Assembly: GCF_003977665.1 (NCBI RefSeq)
Contig: NZ_RYYV01000006.1
Span: 1-64,000 of the forward strand
From: Dyella choica
GTDB taxonomy: Bacteria > Pseudomonadota > Gammaproteobacteria > Xanthomonadales > Rhodanobacteraceae
DNA: 64,000 nucleotides
Direction of reading: 5' to 3'
Shown here one piece after another: positions 15,229 through 26,354 of this stretch (position 1 is the stretch's first letter; each line of letters opens with the position of its first letter). Under the pieces are notes generated by a model, which did not search any database, was not told the DNA's origin, and was given only the letters and a program-made list of their open reading frames with translations. Both the position numbers and the translations under genes were made by a program.

Positions 15229-16734
15229 TCAGGAAAGGGGCGAGTGAAGGCTGCGCCGAATGGCGACGATGCGCTCGAACTCGCGGATGAAGTCGATCAA
15301 TGCGGGCGTCGTCTGCTCGGTCCAAGCCGGCGACCGCCAGTCGAGCAGCGCGCTGGGATGCGCGATCAGGGCAAGTTCGAGCAGCAAGGGCCGTAAGCCG
15401 CAGTCGTCGCGCAGGCGCGGACTTTCGGCTATCTGGCGTATGTCTGCCATCAAGGCGCTGGAGAAATCGGCCGACAGGGTCTCGCCCAGCGGGCATGAGG
15501 CGATCACATCACCCAGCCGGCCGTCCTGGCGAAGCTGATCGAGCGAACGTGGCCAGTACGGTTCGCGTTCGGCGACCGGCAGCCAGGCGAGCAGGCCGAC
15601 CCTATCGCCGAAGGCTTGCGCGCGCGAGGCGAGCATCGCGTGGATCCAGTCGTGGTCGGCAGCGCCCACGCGGTCGCGCCAGCCTCGGTACAGCGCGTCC
15701 ATCCAATCGCTTTTTGCCGCCCAGGCGATCAGCTGCGCCGGCGTCATGCCGGTGTCGTCGACCCACCAGGACAGTGACGCTTGCCGCACCAATTGATAAA
15801 GCCACCAGGCGCGCTCCCCCAAGCGCTCGTGTTGGGGGCGGTTGCTGTCGATGACCGCGGTTTGCCATGCGGGATCGGCAGCCGCAGGGGCGTCGATCGC
15901 CCATGTTTTGCCGAGCAGATGGCGCTTCTGGGTGAGCAGCGGCGCCAGCCATCCGGTGATGCGCCGCGCATGTACGGATCGGGGCAGCTTGGCCAGCAAC
16001 ATCGCCGCCACCGTGCGCACTTCGCGGCTGCGATCTTTCAGCAGCGGATCGAGCAGGGCTTCATCGTCGCCCTCCAGCCCGTATTCGAGCGTGGATACCA
16101 GTTCGACGCGCTCCCTGGCCGGCAGCTCGCTCAGCTGTGCCTGCAAAAGTTGGCGTGCCCTGGCTGGATCGCGTTGTCGCAATGCGCATAGATAGGCGAT
16201 GCGCTGTGCTAGGTTGCCTTCTTCCCATACATTGGGGTCGTGTTCTGACGCAGTGCCCTCGGCGGCATAGCGCCAATCGGGGTTGAATGCCGCGAGCCAG
16301 CGCCCTCGATGGCCGAGAATCTTCAGCAGCAGCGGCCGCAATGCGACGCTGCGCTTGCCGGCGTCCAGCGCGCCAGGCAGCTGCAGCGCAGGCAGGGTGA
16401 TGCCGAGCGTTGCCAGCCGGCTGCAAATTTCGTGTTGCAAGCGCACCGGCCCATCGGTGAGTACCTGCGCGAGCAGCACGGACCATGGATGGGCGTCGGC
16501 GAGGGTGTTGTCGTCGGCAGGCGAAGGCTGTGGCAGCACTGCCGAACCGGAGGGCAACGTCAATCCTGCCCGCTGGCATGCCGCCATGACGCCCGCCACA
16601 CGACTGAATGTGAGCGCTGGATCGTCCCCTTGCATGCCGATCTGCGCCAGCAGCTTGCCGACTTCGGTATCGGCGGAAAACGCCACTGCACCCTCCACAC
16701 CGACCAAAGCCTGCTTGAACCAGTCGGCTTTCAC
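15229..16734 (-). CDS. DUF5691 family protein
   Basis: A 501-aa all-helical protein, Leu/Ala/Trp-rich, beginning VKADWFKQALVGVEGAVAFS, with HEAT-like stretches (RSREVRTVAAMLLAKLPRSV). I chose the GTG at 16734: AAGGAGAT sits 6 bp upstream, and GTG overlaps the TGA of the SWIM gene as GTGA. DUF5691 is known to me only as a partner in SWIM/MoxR/VWA clusters; its biochemical role is unknown. HEAT-like repeats suggest a scaffold. An in-frame longer start at 16764 would overlap the upstream gene more and is less likely. Confidence 0.85.
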   Translation of the reverse strand: MKADWFKQALVGVEGAVAFSADTEVGKLLAQIGMQGDDPALTFSRVAGVMAACQRAGLTLPSGSAVLPQPSPADDNTLADAHPWSVLLAQVLTDGPVRLQHEICSRLATLGITLPALQLPGALDAGKRSVALRPLLLKILGHRGRWLAAFNPDWRYAAEGTASEHDPNVWEEGNLAQRIAYLCALRQRDPARARQLLQAQLSELPARERVELVSTLEYGLEGDDEALLDPLLKDRSREVRTVAAMLLAKLPRSVHARRITGWLAPLLTQKRHLLGKTWAIDAPAAADPAWQTAVIDSNRPQHERLGERAWWLYQLVRQASLSWWVDDTGMTPAQLIAWAAKSDWMDALYRGWRDRVGAADHDWIHAMLASRAQAFGDRVGLLAWLPVAEREPYWPRSLDQLRQDGRLGDVIASCPLGETLSADFSSALMADIRQIAESPRLRDDCGLRPLLLELALIAHPSALLDWRSPAWTEQTTPALIDFIREFERIVAIRRSLHSPLS

Positions 16735-18083
16735 GCGGCCATCTCCTTGCTGTTCAAGCTCCACGGCGCCATAGCGTTATCGGCGCGCCGCGCCGAAAGG
16801 GGAAGCAGGCTGTGACCGTTCCATTCGCCCATGACGTCGATCGGATGACCGCCACTGAAAGCGAGCAGCGACCACGCGCAGGATTCGGGCATATTCAGTG
16901 TCAGCACGCCGACGTCCGTTTGCAGCAACCAGGTCTGCTCGTAGATCACCGGCGTGGCATTCGTCAGCAGCATCGGTACCTGCTGCAGCCAGGGGTTTTG
17001 CGCATACCACGCAGACACCCGGTCCAACATCGCATCCGGCGCCAGCTTCGGCCAAGGAAAAGCTGCCGACGCCACACGCTCCGTAGCCAAGGCACGCAGC
17101 GATGCGCTGCCCGGATAGAAATGCAGACCAGCCCGATAACTCGATCCGTCCAGCCAGGGCATGGGCAAGGCGTTCGTGTTGTACGCAAAGTCGAGCAGCA
17201 GCGCATACCGGCCGCTATGGCCGCCATGCAGCCAGATGCGGCGTTCGGTGAGATGGGTTTCGCGCGAAAGCGTGATCTGGCCGAGCGCCAGCCAGTCGTC
17301 GGTGACCGTGTCCGGCGATGCAGCCACTTCCTCCTTGTCATGCGGCCAACCCAGTGCGGCCCGCAGGTCGGCAAGCCGTGCCGGCGAAAGCTGCTCGCGC
17401 CGGGCAACACCCTCGTTGATCAGCTGGATCAGGCCGAGCGCCTGGATGGCCTGCTCGTGCCGGCTGGACCCGGCACTCAGCATTTGCCCCGCTTCCTCCA
17501 GGCGCTGCGCCAATCCGGGCGCTTGCGCATCGATCATGCGCGCCGCCATGGTGCTCCAGTTCTTACGCTGTTCGGCACCGAATCCGGCCAGACCCTGGCG
17601 GAACTGATCGGCCATCCAGCGTTGCAGATCGGCGCTTCCCGATTCAATGCGCTTCCATCTGGCTGCTTCGCGCTTGGTTGTTGCAGCGGCGGCAGCGATC
17701 GGGTCGGCCGGCGCTTTCTCTGCGGCGGCCTGTTCTTTTTTGACGGCCTTTTCCTTGCGCGAAGCAAGCCACTCGTCGACCCAGGCCGGACGAGCGGCCT
17801 TCGCAAAGCGGGACCTGAATTGCGTGTACTGCAGCAACAACGCCAGAGCGTGCTTGCACGGAAACTTGCGGCTGGGACAAGAGCAGCGCGAGACGAGCGC
17901 TGCAAGATCGACTTGACTCTGATAAGGCTTGGCGCCGCTGCCCTTGCATTCGCCCCAAACGGCATCGTCGTCCGTGCCGAGCGACGACCAATGGCTTTGG
18001 GCCACCAAACCCGATGCAGCCTTGGCCGACGCACCGTCGGGCGCAAGCGCCAGGACCTGCTCCGTCGTCAACGACACTCCCAT
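16731..18083 (-). CDS. SWIM zinc-finger protein, first gene of the operon
   Basis: A 450-aa protein. The SWIM motif CxCxnCxH is complete as CSCPSRKFPCKH at about residues 66-77, an element that binds DNA or protein. An Ala/Lys-rich linker (about 105-145) and a C-terminal region of about 300 residues follow. The ATG at 18083 is preceded by GAGGGCAC; an upstream in-frame start at 18152 lacks support. It opens the five-gene unit that runs to the VWA gene at 10606 with overlaps or gaps below 25 bp, so all five are probably one transcript from a promoter between 18084 and 18218. Confidence 0.9.
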   Translation of the reverse strand: MGVSLTTEQVLALAPDGASAKAASGLVAQSHWSSLGTDDDAVWGECKGSGAKPYQSQVDLAALVSRCSCPSRKFPCKHALALLLQYTQFRSRFAKAARPAWVDEWLASRKEKAVKKEQAAAEKAPADPIAAAAATTKREAARWKRIESGSADLQRWMADQFRQGLAGFGAEQRKNWSTMAARMIDAQAPGLAQRLEEAGQMLSAGSSRHEQAIQALGLIQLINEGVARREQLSPARLADLRAALGWPHDKEEVAASPDTVTDDWLALGQITLSRETHLTERRIWLHGGHSGRYALLLDFAYNTNALPMPWLDGSSYRAGLHFYPGSASLRALATERVASAAFPWPKLAPDAMLDRVSAWYAQNPWLQQVPMLLTNATPVIYEQTWLLQTDVGVLTLNMPESCAWSLLAFSGGHPIDVMGEWNGHSLLPLSARRADNAMAPWSLNSKEMAA

Positions 18084-18218
18084 GTGCCCTCGGCTCCCCC
18101 AACTGCCCCTGAAGGCCCGCGAGCATAACCGAAATTCATGACGCGACCGCAACGCCTGCTGGCAAGACAGATTCGCCTCTTAGCCATCGCAAGCCATGCG
18201 CGGTTGCGGAGAGCCAAC

Positions 18219-20024
18219 TTAAAGCATGCTTGCGCGCTTTCCGGTTTGCTGGGCTTCGGCTTGATCAACCTGTTCACCACTTGCCACAAGCCGGTTGCGT
18301 CCCGTCCGTTTGGCGCTATAGAGCGCCGTATCCGCATCCTTGCTCAAGCGCTGCAAGTCATATCCGGATGCGTCGGTGCAGGCCAGCCCGAGGCTGGCGG
18401 AAAACGAGATGGATGCCCCTTCGGCATCCACCAGTGTCGCTTCGATGACCACGCGGATGCGCTCGGCTATGGCCATGCCCCGCTCGCGCTGGCAATCGAT
18501 CAGCAGGATGCAGAATTCCTCGCCGCCGAGCCGGCCGAACAAGTCGGTCGAACGCAGATGCTGTCGGCAGATGACCACCGTACGCTTCAGCACGATGTCG
18601 CCAAGCGCGTGGCCGTGTGCATCGTTGATCTGCTTGAAGTGATCGAGGTCGATGGCGATCAGGCAGGCCGTGCCTTGTCTTTTTACCAGTGACTGCAGGA
18701 GGCGTTCGGCTTCACCGAGAAAGTGTTGATGGTTGGAGATGCTGGTAAGCCCGTCCAGGCAGGACAGCTGCTTGAAGCGCAACTGCGAGCGCTTGAGACG
18801 GAACAGCCAGAACACCACCGACACCAGCACCACCAGCAACAGGGCAATATACAGCCGGCTGGTTTCGACCGCCTTGCTGGTCAGGTCATCCCGCAATTTC
18901 AGGATCCTGTTCTGCTTGCTCAGGCTATCCGCCTGCATTTTCTGCACTAGCAACTGCTGTTCGGCCATGTCATAGGCCAAAGCCCTGGCGCGGACATCGT
19001 CGACATGGCTCTTGTCCAGCGCTGCGTAGTGTTCGTAGTAAGCGAGCGCGGCGGCTGTATGGCCTTGTTTTTTTTCGATCTGGTAGAGCACCTGATAGGC
19101 GTCCATCAGCTGCTCGCTGAGGTCGCCAGGCTGGCTCATGGCCAGGGCCGATAAGGCGGACTTTTTGGCCTCGTCATCGTTGCCGAGCTGGAGGTAGGCC
19201 TGCGCACGCCGTACCTGGAATGACAACATGTGATCGTAATAATGAGCCGTCTGGATAGCGGGGCTGATCTGGTCGAGCAAGGCCATGGCTTTGCCAGACT
19301 GGTTTTCATCCAGATAGAGGTCGATCAGGATGAGCCACATGGCATTGGTGACGACTGGTTGCCGGGCGTTCGTACAGACGTCAATGGCTTTGCGCAATTC
19401 CGGGCTGGCTGACTTCAGCCGTTTGCCGTTGTTGAGCGCTGCGGCTTGCAGCATGAGCGGGCGACATGCCGTCTCCCCAGGCGGAATGGCATCCTCCGCC
19501 ATGCGCGCGTACTGGACCGCCAAATCGGTCTGGTCGGCAAGATCCACCGTCTGCGACAGATAAGTCAGCAGGGTGAAGCGTATGGATGGGTCCTTGATCT
19601 CGGGCAGGATCGAAGCCAGGTGATTGGCCAGTGCAAAGGCTTCCTCGTATCGCCTGTTGGTCGACAGGATTTTCAGGAGCAGTGAGGACGCCTTGGCGAT
19701 CAGCGCAGGGTCACCCGAACGGTCGATGATCTGGTGCAGCTGCGGCTCGGATTTGGCAGAACCGCCCTCGTAGATGGCCTCCCACGCGTCAAGGTAACGC
19801 AGATGCCATTGGTCACTCTCGGATAAAGCATCGGCTTCGGGCTGGATCTGTTCCAGCATCCGAACAAACTGCGAGTGGTCTTGCAGGCGAAGGCTTTCAG
19901 CCTGGTCAAGGAACTTGGCGGGATTCGCTATCGGGGGGGTGGCGTATCCAGGTTGCGCGAGCGCGCAGCAAACCACAGCCATCACGGCAGGCCAGAAGCG
20001 GATGCGGCTCGACAATCCGGACAC
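18219..20024 (-). CDS. periplasmic TPR - transmembrane - GGDEF diguanylate cyclase
   Basis: A 601-aa membrane protein. An N-terminal signal segment (FWPAVMAVVCCALAQPGYA) is followed by TPR-like helical repeats to about residue 375, a coiled linker, a transmembrane helix (YIALLLVVLVSVVFWLF, about 395-412) and a cytoplasmic GGDEF domain with an intact GGEEF active site in GRLGGEEFCILL (about 517-528). It would make cyclic di-GMP in response to a periplasmic signal. The start is GTG at 20024, 11 bp after the stop of the 94-aa candidate precursor gene, so the two are probably co-transcribed. That pairing with a RiPP-like precursor is unusual. No inhibitory RxxD site was clearly seen. Confidence 0.9.
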   Translation of the reverse strand: MSGLSSRIRFWPAVMAVVCCALAQPGYATPPIANPAKFLDQAESLRLQDHSQFVRMLEQIQPEADALSESDQWHLRYLDAWEAIYEGGSAKSEPQLHQIIDRSGDPALIAKASSLLLKILSTNRRYEEAFALANHLASILPEIKDPSIRFTLLTYLSQTVDLADQTDLAVQYARMAEDAIPPGETACRPLMLQAAALNNGKRLKSASPELRKAIDVCTNARQPVVTNAMWLILIDLYLDENQSGKAMALLDQISPAIQTAHYYDHMLSFQVRRAQAYLQLGNDDEAKKSALSALAMSQPGDLSEQLMDAYQVLYQIEKKQGHTAAALAYYEHYAALDKSHVDDVRARALAYDMAEQQLLVQKMQADSLSKQNRILKLRDDLTSKAVETSRLYIALLLVVLVSVVFWLFRLKRSQLRFKQLSCLDGLTSISNHQHFLGEAERLLQSLVKRQGTACLIAIDLDHFKQINDAHGHALGDIVLKRTVVICRQHLRSTDLFGRLGGEEFCILLIDCQRERGMAIAERIRVVIEATLVDAEGASISFSASLGLACTDASGYDLQRLSKDADTALYSAKRTGRNRLVASGEQVDQAEAQQTGKRASML

Positions 20025-20035
20025 GTGCGTGTCGC

Positions 20036-20320
20036 CTATTTTTTGGACGGCAACGGGACTGCATCGGGAACAGGTGCTTCCAGCGGGTCATCTTCCTCCG
20101 GTTCGTCCTCTCGAGCTGGAGACAGGATGGTTTCCACCGTTTTGTTCGCCATGAATCCGAATTCTTCGGATAAGAGTGAGCTGTCACCGGACGCCACTGC
20201 CGCAGTGAGGGCATCGGATGCCTGCGCCTGTGCCAGCATCTTGCCCAAGTCCTCCGTTGAAGCATGGCGCAAGGAAGCATCCTGGCCGATGGCTTCCAGC
20301 AGATCAATCGTGTCTGTCAT
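20036..20320 (-). CDS. candidate split-borosin precursor peptide (94 aa)
   Basis: The first ~55 residues are predicted helical (TIDLLEAIGQDASLRHASTE, then QASDALTAAVASGDSSLLSE). Their spacing (LGQDA-type start, then Ala-rich helix, then A..xGD..xL) matches my memory of the borosin-binding domains of SonA-type precursors and the OphMA C-terminal helper. Residues 56-94 are a flexible acidic, Pro-rich tail (KTVETILSPAREDEPEEDDP), where a modified core could lie. ATG at 20320 follows AGGGGAAAA. It lies 188 bp downstream of a borosin-like methyltransferase gene and 11 bp upstream of the GGDEF gene, all on one strand. The gene is firm; the precursor role is inference. Confidence 0.75.
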   Translation of the reverse strand: MTDTIDLLEAIGQDASLRHASTEDLGKMLAQAQASDALTAAVASGDSSLLSEEFGFMANKTVETILSPAREDEPEEDDPLEAPVPDAVPLPSKK

Positions 20321-20508
20321 GTCAGTTTTCCCCTGTTTTTTCTGCTTGATAGTTGTGGTGCAGCAGACAGCCCACGCAGGTGCATGCTGTTATGTCCAGG
20401 CATCGCCCGCAGGCCATTATCGCGCCTGATTATGGCGACGCGTACATCGGGTGCTGCATTTTCCCGATGCACGGCGGCCTAAGCAAAGATTGTTCCTTGG
20501 CAGGTCAC

Positions 20509-21351
20509 CTAGACTTGGACTGCCTTGCCGGCTTTCTCCAGGGCATCCAACGCGTCCAGCCGCTCCTTCATCGCGAGGTTCAACTTCAAGGGTTGCGCCG
20601 GGGGCAGGACGACCGTTTCCTCGGTAGTCAACGGGATGTTGGGCAGATCACGCAGGGCGACGCGGCGGATGCGCGGCTTCTCAATCGGGAGCGTCGCGCC
20701 TCGGTAGACGATCACCTCGTGATCCGGCGGGTAGTCCTGACTCAACCGATCCACCAGCACCTGTCGATACGCCGACCCGGTCTGGAATCGCGTCAGCGAC
20801 CAATCGCCAACCAGCCCTACTTGCCAAAGCACCAGGTAGCCGGCGTTATCAATGCGTCGCTCATAAAAAAGCAGCTGGCTGGCCTCGAAGTGCTGGCAGC
20901 CCAAGCGCCCGGGATCGATCCCCAGGTCGGCATAAAGGCAATCCTCGGCGGAAATGCCCGGCTCCATATACGCTTCGAAGCCTTCCGCGCGCGCCACCTC
21001 GATCGCCTTGTGCGGCGACCAGGCAAAAATGCCGGGGTGACCGTAAAAAACGCCGCAAACCCGCTTGCCGGCGCGCACCTCGGTCATGATCAGCGCCACC
21101 CATTCCCGATAGGTTTTCAATCGGGACTTGCCTTCCCGGTAATAGGGCTGGAGGCTGCGCACGTCCGGACGCAGGCGTTGCAACCACTTTTCCACGATGC
21201 CATCGGAAAGCGCCGCGAACACCACGTCCGCGCGCTCGATATGGCTGCGCGCCAGCGGGGTGAGGTGGGAACCCAGGGTCATGCCGAAGCCGACGCAGGC
21301 CAAGCTCCCGTGGCAAGTAGAGTTCGAAGCTGTCAACGAGGATGTTTGCAT
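20509..21351 (-). CDS. borosin-type peptide alpha-N-methyltransferase (tetrapyrrole-methylase fold)
   Basis: A 280-aa SAM-dependent methyltransferase. Instead of resembling porphyrin enzymes, it follows the fungal omphalotin enzyme OphMA and bacterial SonM closely: GSLACVGFGMTLG, YYREGKSRLKTYREW, VCGVFYGHPGIFAWSPHKA, MEPGISAEDCLYADLGIDP, GCQHFEASQLL and LVLWQVGLVG each match recalled OphMA segments position by position. These enzymes N-methylate peptide backbones. It lacks the fused C-terminal precursor of OphMA, as expected of a split system. I chose the ATG at 21351; longer in-frame starts (21384, 21558) are not protein-like. The candidate precursor gene follows on the same strand. Confidence 0.85.
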   Translation of the reverse strand: MQTSSLTASNSTCHGSLACVGFGMTLGSHLTPLARSHIERADVVFAALSDGIVEKWLQRLRPDVRSLQPYYREGKSRLKTYREWVALIMTEVRAGKRVCGVFYGHPGIFAWSPHKAIEVARAEGFEAYMEPGISAEDCLYADLGIDPGRLGCQHFEASQLLFYERRIDNAGYLVLWQVGLVGDWSLTRFQTGSAYRQVLVDRLSQDYPPDHEVIVYRGATLPIEKPRIRRVALRDLPNIPLTTEETVVLPPAQPLKLNLAMKERLDALDALEKAGKAVQV

Positions 21352-21514
21352 GGTGTGATGTGTTCGCTGTTTGCAGTGTGGCATGGTCGACAAACCAAGA
21401 GCAAAGCAACTTGCATGCCCAAAGCGAGAGAAGCGTGCTTTTGCCGTTGCTTGGGAATCACTTCGCCCGCTTGTGGGTGTATACAGGCCATGAGGCCTGA
21501 AGCGAGTAGCGCGG

Positions 21515-21805
21515 ATGAGCACCCACCTCTTTACACGGCCGAGCGCAGTGGCGCCCATCCTGATGTCCTTGGCCGCCCTTGCGATGGTGCTCGGTCATAT
21601 CGCCCTGTTTGGCACGGTACGCCAGGCCGATGAAGGCGCTGCTGCTCATCTATTCCAGCTGCTTATGGTCGGGCAAATCCCCATTGTTGCGTACTTCGCC
21701 ATCCATGGGCTGCCGCGCATGCCCAGGTTGGCGCTGGCTGTTCTAGCCACACAGCTGCTCGCTGGCTTGGCAGCATGTGCCCCGGTTTGGTACTTCCATT
21801 TGTAG
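21515..21805 (+). CDS. small membrane protein (96 aa)
   Basis: A 96-aa protein with three hydrophobic segments (ILMSLAALAMVLGHIALFG; LLMVGQIPIVAYFAIHGL; LALAVLATQLLAGLAACAPV). No family recognised. The ATG at 21515 is divergent from the methyltransferase gene. The ribosome site is weak. Overlapping minus-strand frames look artefactual. Confidence 0.6.
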   Translation: MSTHLFTRPSAVAPILMSLAALAMVLGHIALFGTVRQADEGAAAHLFQLLMVGQIPIVAYFAIHGLPRMPRLALAVLATQLLAGLAACAPVWYFHL

Positions 21806-21838
21806 TGCGTCACTTGGCGTGTGACGGTATAGCGGGCC

Positions 21839-22945
21839 TCATTCGTAGCGGCCCACGTCATGCTCATCGCTGGTCAGCAGGCGCATGAAAGTCGGATGGA
21901 TGAACAGCTTCTCCCGCCCCGCCTTCACTTCGCTCAGCATGCCGATCGCGGTCAGTTCCTTGAGGTATGCCGACGCGGTTTGACGCTTGGCGACGCCGGC
22001 ATCCACCAGGTTCTGGATGCGGCAGTAGGGTTGGACAAACAGCACGTCGATCAGCTCGTGGCTATAGATCGCGCTGGCACGTGCCTTGACGAACGCCGTC
22101 GCGTCAGCCTGCAATTGTTGGATGGCCTGGATCTTGGCGGTCGTCCACAGGGCTGTTTCCTTGATCGCCGTAAGCATGAAGTCCACCCATGGCTCCCACG
22201 CGCCATCGCGCGTTACTGCCATCAGTAGACGATAGTAGTTGGCGCGGTTACGCAGGATGTATCGGGAGAGGTATAGCACCGGTTGGGCCAACAGGCCCTG
22301 CTCCACCAGGATCAGCAGGTTGAGCACCCGGCCGGTGCGGCCATTGCCGTCGAGGAAGGGATGGATGGCCTCGAACTGGTAGTGCGCCACGGCCATGCGA
22401 ATGACCGGGTCGATCTCGGTATGGTTGTGAATGAAGCGCTCCCAGTCGGCCAGCTTCTCCCGCAGCACAGCCTCGCCGACCGGTGGCGTGTAGATCACCT
22501 CTCTGGTGGCGGCGTTGGCCAGCGACGTGCCTGGTACGCTGCGAATGCCCATGCGGACGCCTTTGATCTGACTGCAGACCTCAATAGCCGTGTTCGTACT
22601 GAGCGGCCGGTCGCGCAGGGACTGGAAGCCTCGGTACAGCGCGCCGCGATACCGCAGGGCCTCCTTCGTGGCCGGGTCTGCCGACTCTTCGTGCAGTTGG
22701 GCTGCACGAAAAAGGGCATCCGTGGTGGTGACTATGTTCTCGATCTCGCTACTGGCCTGGGCTTCCAGCAGCGGGATGGTATTGATCAGGACAGCCTGGT
22801 TGGGGATCAGGTCGCCCGCGCCCTTGAGTCCGGCCAAGGCGGATCGCGCCTCGATGCAGGCTTTGAGCAAGAGCTTGGTCTCGATGTCCTGCTTGGGGGG
22901 CAGGGGGGGGAGAGTGTTGAACGGCTGCTTAGGGTCGAAGTCCAT
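21839..22945 (-). CDS. Fic family AMP-transferase with N-terminal inhibitory motif and C-terminal winged helix
   Basis: A 368-aa Fic protein that would transfer AMP to target hydroxyls. The catalytic motif is complete: HPFLDGNGRTGR (about residue 196). An inhibitory helix motif SSEIEN ([S/T]xxxE[G/N], about residue 66) lies N-terminal to the Fic core, making it a class II Fic that is auto-inhibited in cis. The C-terminal ~80 residues (IQNLVDAGVAKRQTASAYLK) look like a winged helix, common in this branch. The ATG at 22945 follows an array of palindromes (22967-23076), suggesting autoregulation by its own DNA-binding domain. No antitoxin partner is adjacent. Confidence 0.92.
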   Translation of the reverse strand: MDFDPKQPFNTLPPLPPKQDIETKLLLKACIEARSALAGLKGAGDLIPNQAVLINTIPLLEAQASSEIENIVTTTDALFRAAQLHEESADPATKEALRYRGALYRGFQSLRDRPLSTNTAIEVCSQIKGVRMGIRSVPGTSLANAATREVIYTPPVGEAVLREKLADWERFIHNHTEIDPVIRMAVAHYQFEAIHPFLDGNGRTGRVLNLLILVEQGLLAQPVLYLSRYILRNRANYYRLLMAVTRDGAWEPWVDFMLTAIKETALWTTAKIQAIQQLQADATAFVKARASAIYSHELIDVLFVQPYCRIQNLVDAGVAKRQTASAYLKELTAIGMLSEVKAGREKLFIHPTFMRLLTSDEHDVGRYE

Positions 22946-23107: not shown

Positions 23108-23872
23108 CTAGGCCCCAATGACCCAGGCCCGAAGGACTTCGTCGAGCAAGGCCTGATCGACGTCGCTCTTGCGGGCGAGGGCGGGGCCTACAAGGGCCAG
23201 ATGCTCCAATTGAGCTTGCATCCAACGACGGAGGAACGGCGGTAAGGCGGCGCTGTCGCCTTCCCGCTGGACGGTCTTGCGCGCTTCCAGTTCGCCGATC
23301 CAGCCGCGTTCTTCGTCACTGACCCAGGGCGCGGCGATCAAGCGGGAAAACTCCGTAGGCGGCTGGGTGCGTGTGTGTTCGATCCAGCGGCAGGCCTGCA
23401 CGGAACGCAGAAAATAGAACACTTTCTTCAGGCGCACCGAGTCGCCGCAAAGATGTTCAGCGTGAGTGGACGAGGCCATGCTCAGGTAATGGAACAGGGC
23501 TCGCGCCGGCTGGAAGAACTGCGGGATCAGGCGGCGTATGGCCGAGACGAACGCCGCCTCCTCGCGGTAGACGATTGGAGAATCGAACCACTCGTTGAAG
23601 GCAAGATTGCATTTGGACATCAGCCGAAGCGCCTTGCGCAAGTCCCAGCCGCTGACATCCAAGTCGCCGGGCAGCATGCGCTCGATGACGTCCCGCGATT
23701 CGAACACCGACAGATACCAGTCCTGCGGATGCACGTACACGAAGCGCACGTCGTAGTCACTATCGGGCGACGCAAAACCCCACGCGCGACTGCCCGACTC
23801 GGCGGCATACAACACGTGCACGCCATAGTCATTTTCGATGGCGTCGATGGCCTGTTGAATAGCTTCGTTCAT
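23108..23872 (-). CDS. RlaP-type nucleotidyltransferase (first of two)
   Basis: A 254-aa protein of the DNA polymerase beta nucleotidyltransferase superfamily, RlaP/COG3541-like. The active site reads ESGSRAWGFASPDSDYDVRF (GS..W/YG..SD.D.R, about residues 24-43). Family members are often found with RNA-repair genes, including rtcB/rtcA and RNA ligases. I chose the ATG at 23872 because it overlaps the TGA of the upstream RlaP gene as ATGA, showing translational coupling. Nucleotide and substrate are unknown. The nearby rtcA gene (25341) fits an RNA-repair link. Confidence 0.85.
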   Translation of the reverse strand: MNEAIQQAIDAIENDYGVHVLYAAESGSRAWGFASPDSDYDVRFVYVHPQDWYLSVFESRDVIERMLPGDLDVSGWDLRKALRLMSKCNLAFNEWFDSPIVYREEAAFVSAIRRLIPQFFQPARALFHYLSMASSTHAEHLCGDSVRLKKVFYFLRSVQACRWIEHTRTQPPTEFSRLIAAPWVSDEERGWIGELEARKTVQREGDSAALPPFLRRWMQAQLEHLALVGPALARKSDVDQALLDEVLRAWVIGA

Positions 23873-24969
23873 GGGCGAGTGGTCTCCCAACACGTGGTGA
23901 TGTCGCTTAAGAGGCGTTCCGCCATCGAAACATCGGCCGCCGGTCGCAAGTGCGACAGGGCTGCCTTGTCCGCGCAGCGCGCCACGATTGCCTCAGTCAT
24001 GTCGATCAGTTCGTTATAGCTGTAACGGCCCTTGCGGATCGACAACAGCAGCTCCCGCTGCTCGCCCTCGAAGCGGATCAGGGGGCGGCCATGCTGAAGG
24101 ATGGATTCGCCGGATAACAACAGGCGCACCGTGTGCATGATGTTTTTGGCGTCGTAGTCCAATTCGCCGCTTTCCTGTTGGCGCCAGCGTCCCTCGTTGC
24201 GCTCGCGCCGCCAGGTCCAGTAGTTCTGATGGTCCGCGAGTGCCTGCTTCCAGGCGGATTCGTTGTAGAAGAGCAGGCCGGCGAAATGGCTGGCTTCATG
24301 CTCCAGCGGAATCGATTCGCAGGCCAGCATGCCATCACGGAACACGCCTCGTGCGTCTTCGCCATAGCGGTACAGCCGGTAGCCGTCGCGGGCATGCTCC
24401 AGTCGTGACGCGTGGAAATGGTCGAGGTTCCAGCCCAGCCGGTTAAGCGGCACCGGGCGGCAAGGAGCGGCATCGGGCGGCAGCAGGCCCTGCGCCGGGA
24501 TCACATGGCAATAGTCCTCCTTCGCCGGCGGTTGCTCCCCTTTCGGCTGGTTAATCCACTTGTTCTGGCCGCGCGCTTTCTTGATCTGGCTCAGTGCGTA
24601 GCCGATATGGGTTTGCACGCACTGTTGGGAAATGAATTCATCGCGAGACCTCAGTAGCTGGTCGAAGGCGTCCGTGCGCCAACGGATGCAGTCTTCGGGC
24701 ATGTACAGCAATTCGAGCACGTTCGGGTTTGCCGTAGAGAGAAGTTCAATGACCCGCCGCAAGCTGTAGAAGACGATGTCGTTGCGCAGATCAGAGACCT
24801 GATTCCCGGGCGCCTGCAGGTTCATGTAATCCGCGGCCGGCACGGCAAAGATCCCGCGCAGGTCCAGATCGCTCTCCGCTGTTGCTGTGCCATAGGCGTG
24901 GCTGCCGCTAACGCATTCAAACAGCAATGCGAGATCGGAATGATCAAGCAGATGTTCGAGGGTGGGCAT
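23869..24969 (-). CDS. RlaP-type nucleotidyltransferase (second paralogue)
   Basis: A 366-aa protein with the same signature, CVSGSHAYGTATAESDLDLR (about residues 19-38), and a longer C-terminal half than its neighbour (QNKWINQPKGEQPPAKEDYC). The two are distinct paralogues in one operon, coupled by a 4-bp overlap. It starts 12 bp after the stop of an rtcR remnant on the same strand, so it was probably once downstream of rtcR. The RNA-repair role is inferred from family and neighbourhood. Confidence 0.87.
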   Translation of the reverse strand: MPTLEHLLDHSDLALLFECVSGSHAYGTATAESDLDLRGIFAVPAADYMNLQAPGNQVSDLRNDIVFYSLRRVIELLSTANPNVLELLYMPEDCIRWRTDAFDQLLRSRDEFISQQCVQTHIGYALSQIKKARGQNKWINQPKGEQPPAKEDYCHVIPAQGLLPPDAAPCRPVPLNRLGWNLDHFHASRLEHARDGYRLYRYGEDARGVFRDGMLACESIPLEHEASHFAGLLFYNESAWKQALADHQNYWTWRRERNEGRWRQQESGELDYDAKNIMHTVRLLLSGESILQHGRPLIRFEGEQRELLLSIRKGRYSYNELIDMTEAIVARCADKAALSHLRPAADVSMAERLLSDITTCWETTRP

Positions 24970-24981
24970 GCGAGGTCCATC

Positions 24982-25078
24982 TCAACCAAGGGTGGCATTC
25001 CTTATCACATCCCAGTCCAGGCCGAAACGGGCGACGTATTTGCGCAGGCGGTCGGTGTCGTTGGCGCGAGGCAGCGAA
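24982..25078 (-). pseudogene. rtcR: C-terminal remnant of rtcR (sigma-54-type regulator of rtcBA)
   Basis: The minus strand encodes ANDTDRLRKYVARFGLDWD followed by VIRNATLG and a stop, as I recall the RtcR C-terminus (NDxDRLRKYLARFGLxW). FAASRQ, another word expected just upstream in RtcR, is present in a different frame at 25061-25078, so there is also a frameshift or small deletion. The AAA+ and N-terminal domains are absent. Called a remnant because nothing upstream continues the protein. Confidence 0.65.
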
Positions 25079-25169
25079 CTCGGCATCATTCCGGGAAGCA
25101 TGGGCGCAAAGAGCTTCATCGTGCGTGGCCTGGGCAATGCGGACAGTTTCCATCGCTGCAGCCGCCGCC

Positions 25170-25310
25170 CACGTCGAGTGCAGCAAGGATGCCAATGTGA
25201 TCGACGAGTCGCTCGCGGCGTACAAGTCCATCGACGCAGTGATGGCGGCACAGCAGGACCTGGTGGAAATTGTCCACACCTTGAGTCAGGTGGTGTGCGT
25301 CAAGGGTTGA
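25170..25310 (+). pseudogene. rtcB: C-terminal remnant of rtcB (RNA ligase)
   Basis: The plus strand encodes 46 residues (HVECSKDANVIDESLAAYKS, then IDAVMAAQQDLVEIVHTLSQ, VVCVKG) ending in the VVCVKG typical of the RtcB C-terminus. Sequence before 25170 does not continue RtcB; the catalytic core (Mn ligands and guanylylated His) is gone. It ends 30 bp before rtcA, the standard rtcB-rtcA order. The tail is back-to-back with the rtcR tail, as expected if one deletion removed both 5' portions and the shared promoter. Confidence 0.85.
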
Positions 25311-25340
25311 GCGAAAAGCAACGTTTCAAGGAAAGTGACT

Positions 25341-26354
25341 ATGTTGGAAATCGATGGAAAAGAAGGCGGCGGGCAGCTCTTGCGCACTGCACTCTCGCTC
25401 AGCCTGTGCACAGGCCAGGCGTTTCGCATGGAGCAAATCCGCGCGAAGCGCTCGCGTCCGGGCTTGATGCGCCAGCATTTGACGGCAGTGCAGGCGGCCC
25501 GCGAAGTAGGCGACGCGTTGGTGAGTGGCGCCGTACCCGGTTCCATGACGCTTCAATTCACCCCGCGCACCGTGCGCGGGGGCGAATACCGCTGGTCCAT
25601 CGGCACCGCCGGTTCGACCACCCTGGTATTGCAGACGATCCTGCCTGCGCTGTGGCTGGCAGGCGTCAGCGCACGACTGCACCTGGAGGGTGGCACGCAC
25701 AACCCGCTCGCGCCCAGCGCGGATTTCCTTGCCGACAGTTTTCTTCCGCTGATGCGGCGCATGGGGCTGAACGCGCAGTTGAGCATCGAGCGTCATGGCT
25801 TTTATCCGGCCGGCGGTGGTGCCCTGACGATGGGCATCGTCGAAAGCACGGCACCGGCGCCTCTGCATCTGGCAGCTCGCGGCGAACTGCTGGAAATGTC
25901 CGCGACGGCACTGATGTCGTCGATCCCAGGCCGCGTGGGCGAGCGCGAACTGGATGTCATCGCACGTCGCTTGCCTATCGCCGCCGAGCACCGGCATATC
26001 CGCCAGGCGATTGGCTCACCGGGGCCCGGCAACACGCTGATGGTGCGCGTGCAAAACGCGGAGATCGTGGAACTCTTCACCGCGTTCGGCGAGCGCGGTG
26101 TCTCCGCCGAGCGTGTGGCGGAGCTGGTCAGCTCCGAGGTGTCGCGCTACCTGGAAAGCGGCGCAGCGGTGGGGCCGCATCTTGCCGATCAGCTGTTGTT
26201 GCCTCTCGCGCTGGCAGGGGGTGGCAGCTTTAGCACGCAGACACCTACGGCGCATGCACGCAGCAATGCCGCGCTGATTGAGAAGTTCCTGCCGGTGGAG
26301 ATTGAATTCGAACAGAAGGGGAGTGATCAGTGGTGGGTCAGCGTGACTCGCTGA
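25341..26354 (+). CDS. rtcA: RNA 3'-terminal phosphate cyclase RtcA
   Basis: A 337-aa enzyme that converts RNA 3'-phosphate ends to 2',3'-cyclic phosphates via AMP transfer to a histidine. Family landmarks are all present: IDGKEGGGQLLRTALSLSL, RPGLMRQHLTAVQAA, FRGGEYRWSIGTAGSTTLVL-like (read here TVRGGEYRWSIGTAGSTT), HGFYPAGGG, GPGNTLMV and ADQLLLPLALAGGG. The C-terminal HARSNAALIEKFLP contains the histidine expected to be adenylylated. The ATG at 25341 follows AAGGAAAG. Full length and apparently intact, but its usual upstream gene and sigma-54 promoter have been lost. Confidence 0.95.
   Translation: MLEIDGKEGGGQLLRTALSLSLCTGQAFRMEQIRAKRSRPGLMRQHLTAVQAAREVGDALVSGAVPGSMTLQFTPRTVRGGEYRWSIGTAGSTTLVLQTILPALWLAGVSARLHLEGGTHNPLAPSADFLADSFLPLMRRMGLNAQLSIERHGFYPAGGGALTMGIVESTAPAPLHLAARGELLEMSATALMSSIPGRVGERELDVIARRLPIAAEHRHIRQAIGSPGPGNTLMVRVQNAEIVELFTAFGERGVSAERVAELVSSEVSRYLESGAAVGPHLADQLLLPLALAGGGSFSTQTPTAHARSNAALIEKFLPVEIEFEQKGSDQWWVSVTR

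Follow-up and report, generated by a model that had tools for sequence, protein, structure and literature searches.

A split borosin locus in Dyella choica and the gene of a putative membrane receptor beside it are read here, with somewhat better than even confidence, as one functional unit in which the modified peptide would be the ligand of a TPR sensor that controls a GGDEF domain. The locus lies within the window, that is, the whole stretch of 64,000 nucleotides that was analysed (contig NZ_RYYV01000006.1; source genome of 5.49 Mb in 68 contigs). The reading draws on homologies, gene order and co-occurrence, on precursor-cyclase pairs that persist at a distance from the enzyme, on an exchanged output domain, on a gene fusion and on intact active-site motifs. 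The features of the locus are as follows.

20509-21351, minus strand: borosin-type peptide backbone N-methyltransferase, a putative SonM homologue of 280 aa (PF00590, SonM match, residue identities)
20036-20320, minus strand: putative separate precursor of 94 aa, with binding domain, core and acidic/proline tail (relatives at enzyme loci, SonA profile, AF2)
20156-20320, minus strand: borosin-binding-domain-like leader of the precursor, residues 1-55
20102-20140, minus strand: proposed core, residues 61-73, TVETILSPAREDE (from the SonA methylation register and the motif of relatives)
20039-20101, minus strand: acidic/proline-rich tail of the precursor (sequence; acidic tails are common in relatives)
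18219-20024, minus strand: signal peptide-TPR-TM-GGDEF diguanylate cyclase of 601 aa, with a GTG start 11 nt past the precursor stop
19068-19922, minus strand: TPR sensor region of the cyclase, residues 35-319, predicted periplasmic (AF2, alignment)
18291-18758, minus strand: GGDEF output domain of the cyclase, residues 423-578

The initial annotation had proposed a methyltransferase with a separate precursor in this place; both open reading frames lie where it put them, on the same strand, and the blocks of sequence that it quoted are present in the translations. The ATG at 21351 is the start that gives the 280-aa enzyme, and a longer frame to 21558 is also present. In Pfam the enzyme matches PF00590 at 2.7e-20. 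Against the PDB it finds SonM (7ltc_A) at an E-value of 1.3e-76 and OphMA entries near 1e-49, whereas the sole tetrapyrrole methylase below 0.01 is of corrin type (2e0k, 0.006), and the kinship with OphMA and SonM rather than with porphyrin methylases that had been claimed for it is upheld by these values. A corrin or porphyrin methylase (kin of CobA/CysG) is rejected on the difference between SonM and the best corrin enzyme. NCBIfam matches are far below their cut-offs, the best reaching 28 bits of 525. Over the stretch compared with SonM, 104 of 201 residues are identical; SonM Y58, R67, Y71, F99 and W166 correspond to identical residues of the window enzyme (Y71, R77, Y81, F109 and W176), Y93 and E146 are also identical, and Q178 is replaced by R. 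These SonM positions are described in PMC8429565 as catalytic and clamp residues. The sequence comparisons support a borosin-type alpha-N-methyltransferase akin to SonM and OphMA. Its named relatives (80 loci kept of 115) come mostly from Dyella, Rhodanobacter, Frateuria and Fulvimonas.

The 94-aa protein starts 188 nt downstream of the end of the enzyme, on the same minus strand. Searches with the two proteins gave a divided result: the enzyme led to SonM and the family profile of the small protein to SonA, but the 94-aa protein as a single query found nothing useful in the PDB, Pfam or NCBIfam. The protein or a relative of it is present at 74 of 84 enzyme loci, the window counted (tblastn). 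A profile of 39 precursor-family members, none of them Shewanella-type (profile A3), places seven SonA entries at the top of the PDB search with E-values from 1.2e-4 to 5e-4, the next and unrelated entry following at 0.22. Another profile, A1, reaches SonA at 3e-14; because it holds Shewanella-type members, the SonA match is judged on A3. Relatives of the protein matched LigA in 4 of 65 cases and Nif11 in 3 of 65. The AF2 model consists of five helices and a disordered tail, and its best fold matches are to SonA, though weak. Thus the earlier description of the small protein, a helical borosin-binding front with a flexible acidic and proline-rich tail, agrees with the SonA profile register and the five predicted helices. 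No signal peptide is evident. A separately encoded precursor with a SonA-like borosin-binding leader is supported by these comparisons, as is the assignment of the pair to the type IV split borosins; the SonM match, the identical SonM residues and the SonA profile match all favour the split borosin originally proposed.

In SonA the methylated residues are L63 and I65 (PMC8429565). The register shared with SonA places these two sites at TVETILSPAREDE in the 94-aa protein, and this segment also fits the motif of the relatives, hydrophobic pair-x-P-[AG]-x-acidic. Many C-termini of relatives from another order (that of genome G348, treated below) read VC-hydrophobic-hydrophobic-x-PAEDDE followed by an acidic run. 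A loose motif, P-[AGS]-polar-[ED], occurs in 58 of the 97 first-set tails that could be trimmed (4 of the 101 could not), against a mean of 11.6 and at most 20 in shuffles, and in 16 of the 36 nearest short open reading frames of the other order, some of which (for instance at L170, L178 and L188) look spurious, against a mean of 1.4 and at most 5; since the motif was picked after the tails had been viewed, this shuffle test is descriptive. The strict motif is found in 10 of the 97 tails and 15 of the 36 reading frames.

The third gene of the locus encodes a protein in which Pfam recognises GGDEF (2e-39) and TPR_14 (4.8e-7, above cut-off). Its AF2 model, with a mean pLDDT of 88, contains TPR helices at residues 35-319, a long helix at 323-422 and the GGDEF domain. 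A signal peptide and a transmembrane segment were read from the sequence, and because the order is signal peptide, TPR, single TM, GGDEF, the TPR part is predicted to lie outside the cytoplasm. The protein carries a GGEEF motif, the GG[DE]EF form predictive of an active diguanylate cyclase, together with RxxD. Two cysteines of the TPR part, C187 and C217, do not vary across 38 aligned cyclases, among which are Shewanella-type ones. Structure matches of the model are mostly to GGDEF domains; the TPR entries shown are eukaryotic (APPBP2, APC/C) and share general TPR shape only, and an RRNPP receptor is absent among the entries shown. Within its own genome the cyclase has only three full-length matches, which lie beside three of the four enzymes there (contigs 56, 23 and 11), and the remaining 18 matches span the GGDEF part only. 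The fourth enzyme of this genome (L087:8476-9780), of 434 aa with a C-terminal extension and no cyclase beside it, is possibly of another borosin type.

The cyclase had been singled out as worth notice, rightly, as the TPR-GGDEF gene is part of a recurring unit. A cyclase stop lies at most 2.3 kb downstream in 90 of 101 precursor reading frames (83 loci; tandem precursors share one cyclase), the commonest precursor-cyclase spacing being 11 nt (21 of 90). A long TPR-GGDEF reading frame is found in 78 of the 83 loci; of the other five, L024, L058 and L072 end with the contig, and L052 and L087 are without the gene. GGEEF is present in all 95 long cyclases (more than 450 aa) and the RxxD inhibitory site in 88. 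Among 147 genomes of the family, the enzyme was found in 94 (E 1e-20) and the TPR region in 91 (E 1e-15), and every genome of the second group belongs to the first (Fisher 7e-37, kinship ignored); no genome of the 147 has the TPR region without the enzyme. Among the 150 TPR matches listed in these genomes, 106 follow an enzyme on its own strand at a distance of up to 2.5 kb, another 16 are within 12 kb and 28 are elsewhere. Twenty of these 28 distant cyclases were read: nine have an adjacent precursor by profile, one has a precursor recognised by eye in a broken frame, and ten have no detectable precursor adjoining. The nine cases indicate that precursor and cyclase can remain paired with the enzyme far off.

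The three genomes with the enzyme only belong to one genus, and each encodes a single protein of 821-867 aa that combines TPR, GGDEF and enzyme beside a short SonA-like precursor. The TPR part of this fusion is above the Pfam cut-off in one of three, and phmmer with the L118 TPR region gives 1e-26 or better for the two of them that were listed.

L125:6571-9174, L126:8138-10711 and L127:8341-10806: fusion, signal peptide-TPR-TM-GGDEF-borosin methyltransferase

Clusters with more than one kind of precursor occur at L057, L060, L061, L066, L068 and L074; often the first has a repeated or short core, and another, adjoining the cyclase, has an acidic tail. The three precursors of units with an absent or degenerate cyclase, two at L052 and one in the second unit of L014, have short tails that lack an acidic stretch. 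L193 departs from this pattern: both of its precursors are acidic-tailed, and no cyclase lies nearby.

The enzyme was found in 9 of 369 genomes of the class, 7 of them outside the family. A TPR transducer stands beside two of the seven enzymes from other families: L119 combines the enzyme with a TPR hybrid histidine kinase and with a 67-aa reading frame that looks SonA-like by eye, and L118 has a TPR kinase before the enzyme and a TPR-GGDEF gene after it, with no precursor found. No TPR transducer lies beside the enzyme at L120-L124, L087 or L129 (a distant enzyme of G471). In the order of G348 the enzyme is present in 94 of 394 genomes, and 40 loci with 42 enzymes were chosen from it by the analyst. 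A transducer reading frame lies within 1.5 kb of 37 of the 42 enzymes (30 GGDEF, one of which, at L170, is on the opposite strand; 6 histidine kinase; 1 split, TPR only), against about 6 expected from local density. The five without one are at L179, L183 (1.7 kb from the contig end), L186 (first enzyme), L187 and L193. The profile tags a precursor at 22 or more of the 40 loci. Pfam finds TPR in all ten transducers checked, above the curated cut-off in eight (L161 and L188 fall below it), and the kinase versions have only the TPR front in common with the GGDEF cyclases. The cyclase of L175 lies upstream of the enzyme and overlaps its start. At L161, apparently in a Shewanella-type genome, the enzyme aligns with all 263 residues of SonM (1.5e-167) and the precursor matches SonA (2.4e-38); a TPR-GGDEF gene with 21% identity to the window cyclase begins at the next base after SonA. 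Borosin-type enzymes of 37-43% identity are also carried on seven plasmid or megaplasmid records (H1-H7) from Streptomyces, Bradyrhizobium, Burkholderia, Azospirillum, Sinorhizobium and Mycetohabitans.

On a quick tree of 76 enzymes, picked and labelled by the analyst, the transducer label requires 11 changes versus 22.8 in shuffles. Six transducer-less enzymes, including the fourth enzyme of the source genome, cluster apart with weak support (78); that enzyme, L120 and L124 form long branches. The fusion group (support 97) stands beside L118, L181, L175, L189 and L188; four of these neighbours have a cyclase upstream of the enzyme and L118 a TPR kinase, an order that the fusion keeps. Distances between cores covary with those between TPR regions (partial r 0.32, permutation 0.005, over 81 triads; 0.34, 0.003, over 57 single-triad loci) once enzyme, GGDEF and leader distances are removed, ancestry being handled by these partial controls only. 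The corresponding values are -0.05 and -0.13 for core and GGDEF and 0.13 and 0.15 for core and enzyme. Leader and TPR covary more strongly (0.52 and 0.41), so that the core signal may in part reflect common descent of linked genes. The covariation thus lends mild support to a pairing of peptide and TPR domain.

Accessory genes recur in the other order, where a GNAT acetyltransferase lies near the enzyme in 22 of 40 loci and a pepsin-like aspartic protease in 10 of 40 (one partial); in the other loci scanned, GNAT was seen in 8 and the protease in 1, and neither is present in the window. Both are candidate maturation factors, and the protease is possibly the leader protease. It is encoded upstream of the enzyme, with GNAT nearby, at L162, L164, L167, L172, L173, L185, L191, L193 (partial), L196 and L198, identified as PF00026 by Pfam at L162 and L164 and by phmmer at the rest. 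A search of the source genome for it gave zero matches, the control likewise matching nowhere. Upstream of the window enzyme on the same strand is a SoFic-like Fic adenylyltransferase (21839-22945), which is placed outside the unit because it had no more than a single weak match among the fetched GTDB loci (L008, other strand). Further features nearby are an RNA repair cluster at 23108-26354, in which an RNA 3'-phosphate cyclase accompanies two RlaP-type repair nucleotidyltransferases (PF10127), and a DUF5691 protein and a SWIM zinc-finger protein downstream of the diguanylate cyclase on its strand (15229-18152). Rfam gave no match at 17500-22500 up to an E-value of 1, either to a cyclic di-GMP riboswitch or to another RNA; a sigma-70 promoter scan gave 0 sites, and terminator-like sites numbered 6 versus 3.0 in shuffles, neither count being informative.

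By homology with SonM-SonA, the enzyme would bind the helical leader of the precursor and methylate backbone nitrogens of the core that follows. The matured peptide, once released and exported, or the modified precursor would then be the cognate ligand of the periplasmic TPR domain of the neighbouring protein, and binding would set the activity of the cytoplasmic GGDEF domain, such that the level of peptide is passed on as cyclic di-GMP; in some other lineages histidine-kinase signalling would be the output instead. A sensor that is kept while outputs vary, with a peptide gene that may stay beside it, is the trace expected of a ligand-receptor pair. The window cluster yielded no recognisable exporter or protease, and a signal peptide is not evident in the precursor; transport of a cytoplasmic product to the periplasmic TPR domain is thus the missing piece of this model. 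The fusion also counts against a receptor, as it joins the enzyme, not the peptide, to GGDEF. So do the stronger leader-TPR covariation, the ten distant cyclases with no detectable precursor, and the enzymes with no transducer beside them: five of the seven from other families of the class, L087, L129 and five of the 42 in the other order.

If the locus were an ordinary split borosin of type IV with a product that serves some other purpose, and the co-transcribed cyclase raised cyclic di-GMP without binding a peptide, this would also be compatible with the tight spacing and with GGEEF in every long cyclase, and the ten distant cyclases without a detectable precursor agree with it. This alternative is considered unlikely, however, in view of the nine precursor-cyclase pairs that persist at a distance from the enzyme and of a TPR sensor that persists where a histidine kinase replaces the GGDEF output, the opposite of its prediction. 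A little less likely again is a modified precursor that stays in the cytoplasm as a regulatory subunit at the GGDEF side, the TPR domain sensing something else. The lack of an evident signal peptide or exporter, the fusion of the enzyme to GGDEF on the cytoplasmic side and the three precursors without acidic tails in the cyclase-less units of L052 and L014 would suit such a subunit, but the acidic-tailed precursors of L193 have no cyclase nearby, core distance tracks TPR and not GGDEF, and the TPR front is the sole part common to the kinase versions.

Chance neighbourhood is rejected on the 106 of 150 listed TPR matches, the 37 of 42 against about 6, and the co-occurrence in 91 genomes. A single family supplies most loci, which makes its counts interdependent, and the Fisher test ignores kinship; nonetheless the occurrence in two orders, the re-ordering, the tandem copies, the fusion and the swapped output make it very improbable that the neighbours are together by chance or simply through inheritance within a lineage. 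Least credible is a porphyrin or corrin methylase beside an unrelated small protein: PF00590 spans both groups, but the SonM and NCBIfam scores given above and the SonA profile match speak against it. The preferred reading of the window, a peptide ligand with its receptor, may be extended to a broader proposal, held tentatively and a shade more apt to be wrong than right. Many bacterial split borosins may be ligands rather than antibiotics or toxins: their backbone-N-methylated peptides would be sensed by TPR receptors in the membrane, whose GGDEF and histidine-kinase outputs would be interchangeable. Such a system would be the Gram-negative equivalent of pheromone signalling by peptides, working through cyclic di-GMP, and a single enzyme would supply several unlinked pairs of precursor and receptor.

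By family the locus is a type IV split borosin; its coupling to TPR transducers is unreported in the literature searched, a scope outside which the main borosin neighbourhood studies lie. Nor did that literature yield a record of borosins together with cyclic di-GMP, or any record of shewanellamide, and the main text of PMC8429565 has no mention of cyclase, diguanylate or TPR. In 2021 none of these pathways had yet been linked to a final natural product, according to the same paper. The window shares with SonM-SonA of Shewanella oneidensis (type IV) the separate enzyme and precursor, the catalytic and clamp residues and the leader register (PMC8429565). The likeness extends to the TPR-GGDEF gene directly behind sonA in L161. 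The window precursor differs from SonA in its length of 94 aa, its PAREDE-type core and its acidic tail, SonA having 71 aa and ending in SYLVISHGNGD. A later paper reportedly describes a product of the Shewanella pathway, for which we know of no function. Fungal OphMA and the bacterial type III borosins have a methyltransferase of the same family as the window enzyme, but their core is fused to the enzyme, whereas that of the window is separate (PMC11395268 for the fused types).

Periplasmic TPR diguanylate cyclases and TPR sensor kinases have the domain order of the window cyclase. To our knowledge, no peptide partner has been described for either. A receptor gene conserved beside the precursor would suggest a testable role for bacterial borosins. 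The RRNPP receptors (Rap, PlcR, Rgg) are cytoplasmic Gram-positive proteins whose TPR domain is encoded beside a small peptide gene, the peptides not being backbone-methylated. The window TPR protein is likewise encoded adjacent to a small-peptide gene; unlike the RRNPP receptors, it has a TPR domain predicted to be periplasmic and, in its family of transducers, a transmembrane GGDEF or kinase output. If the proposed reading is true, peptide ligands would join the known inputs of diguanylate cyclases.
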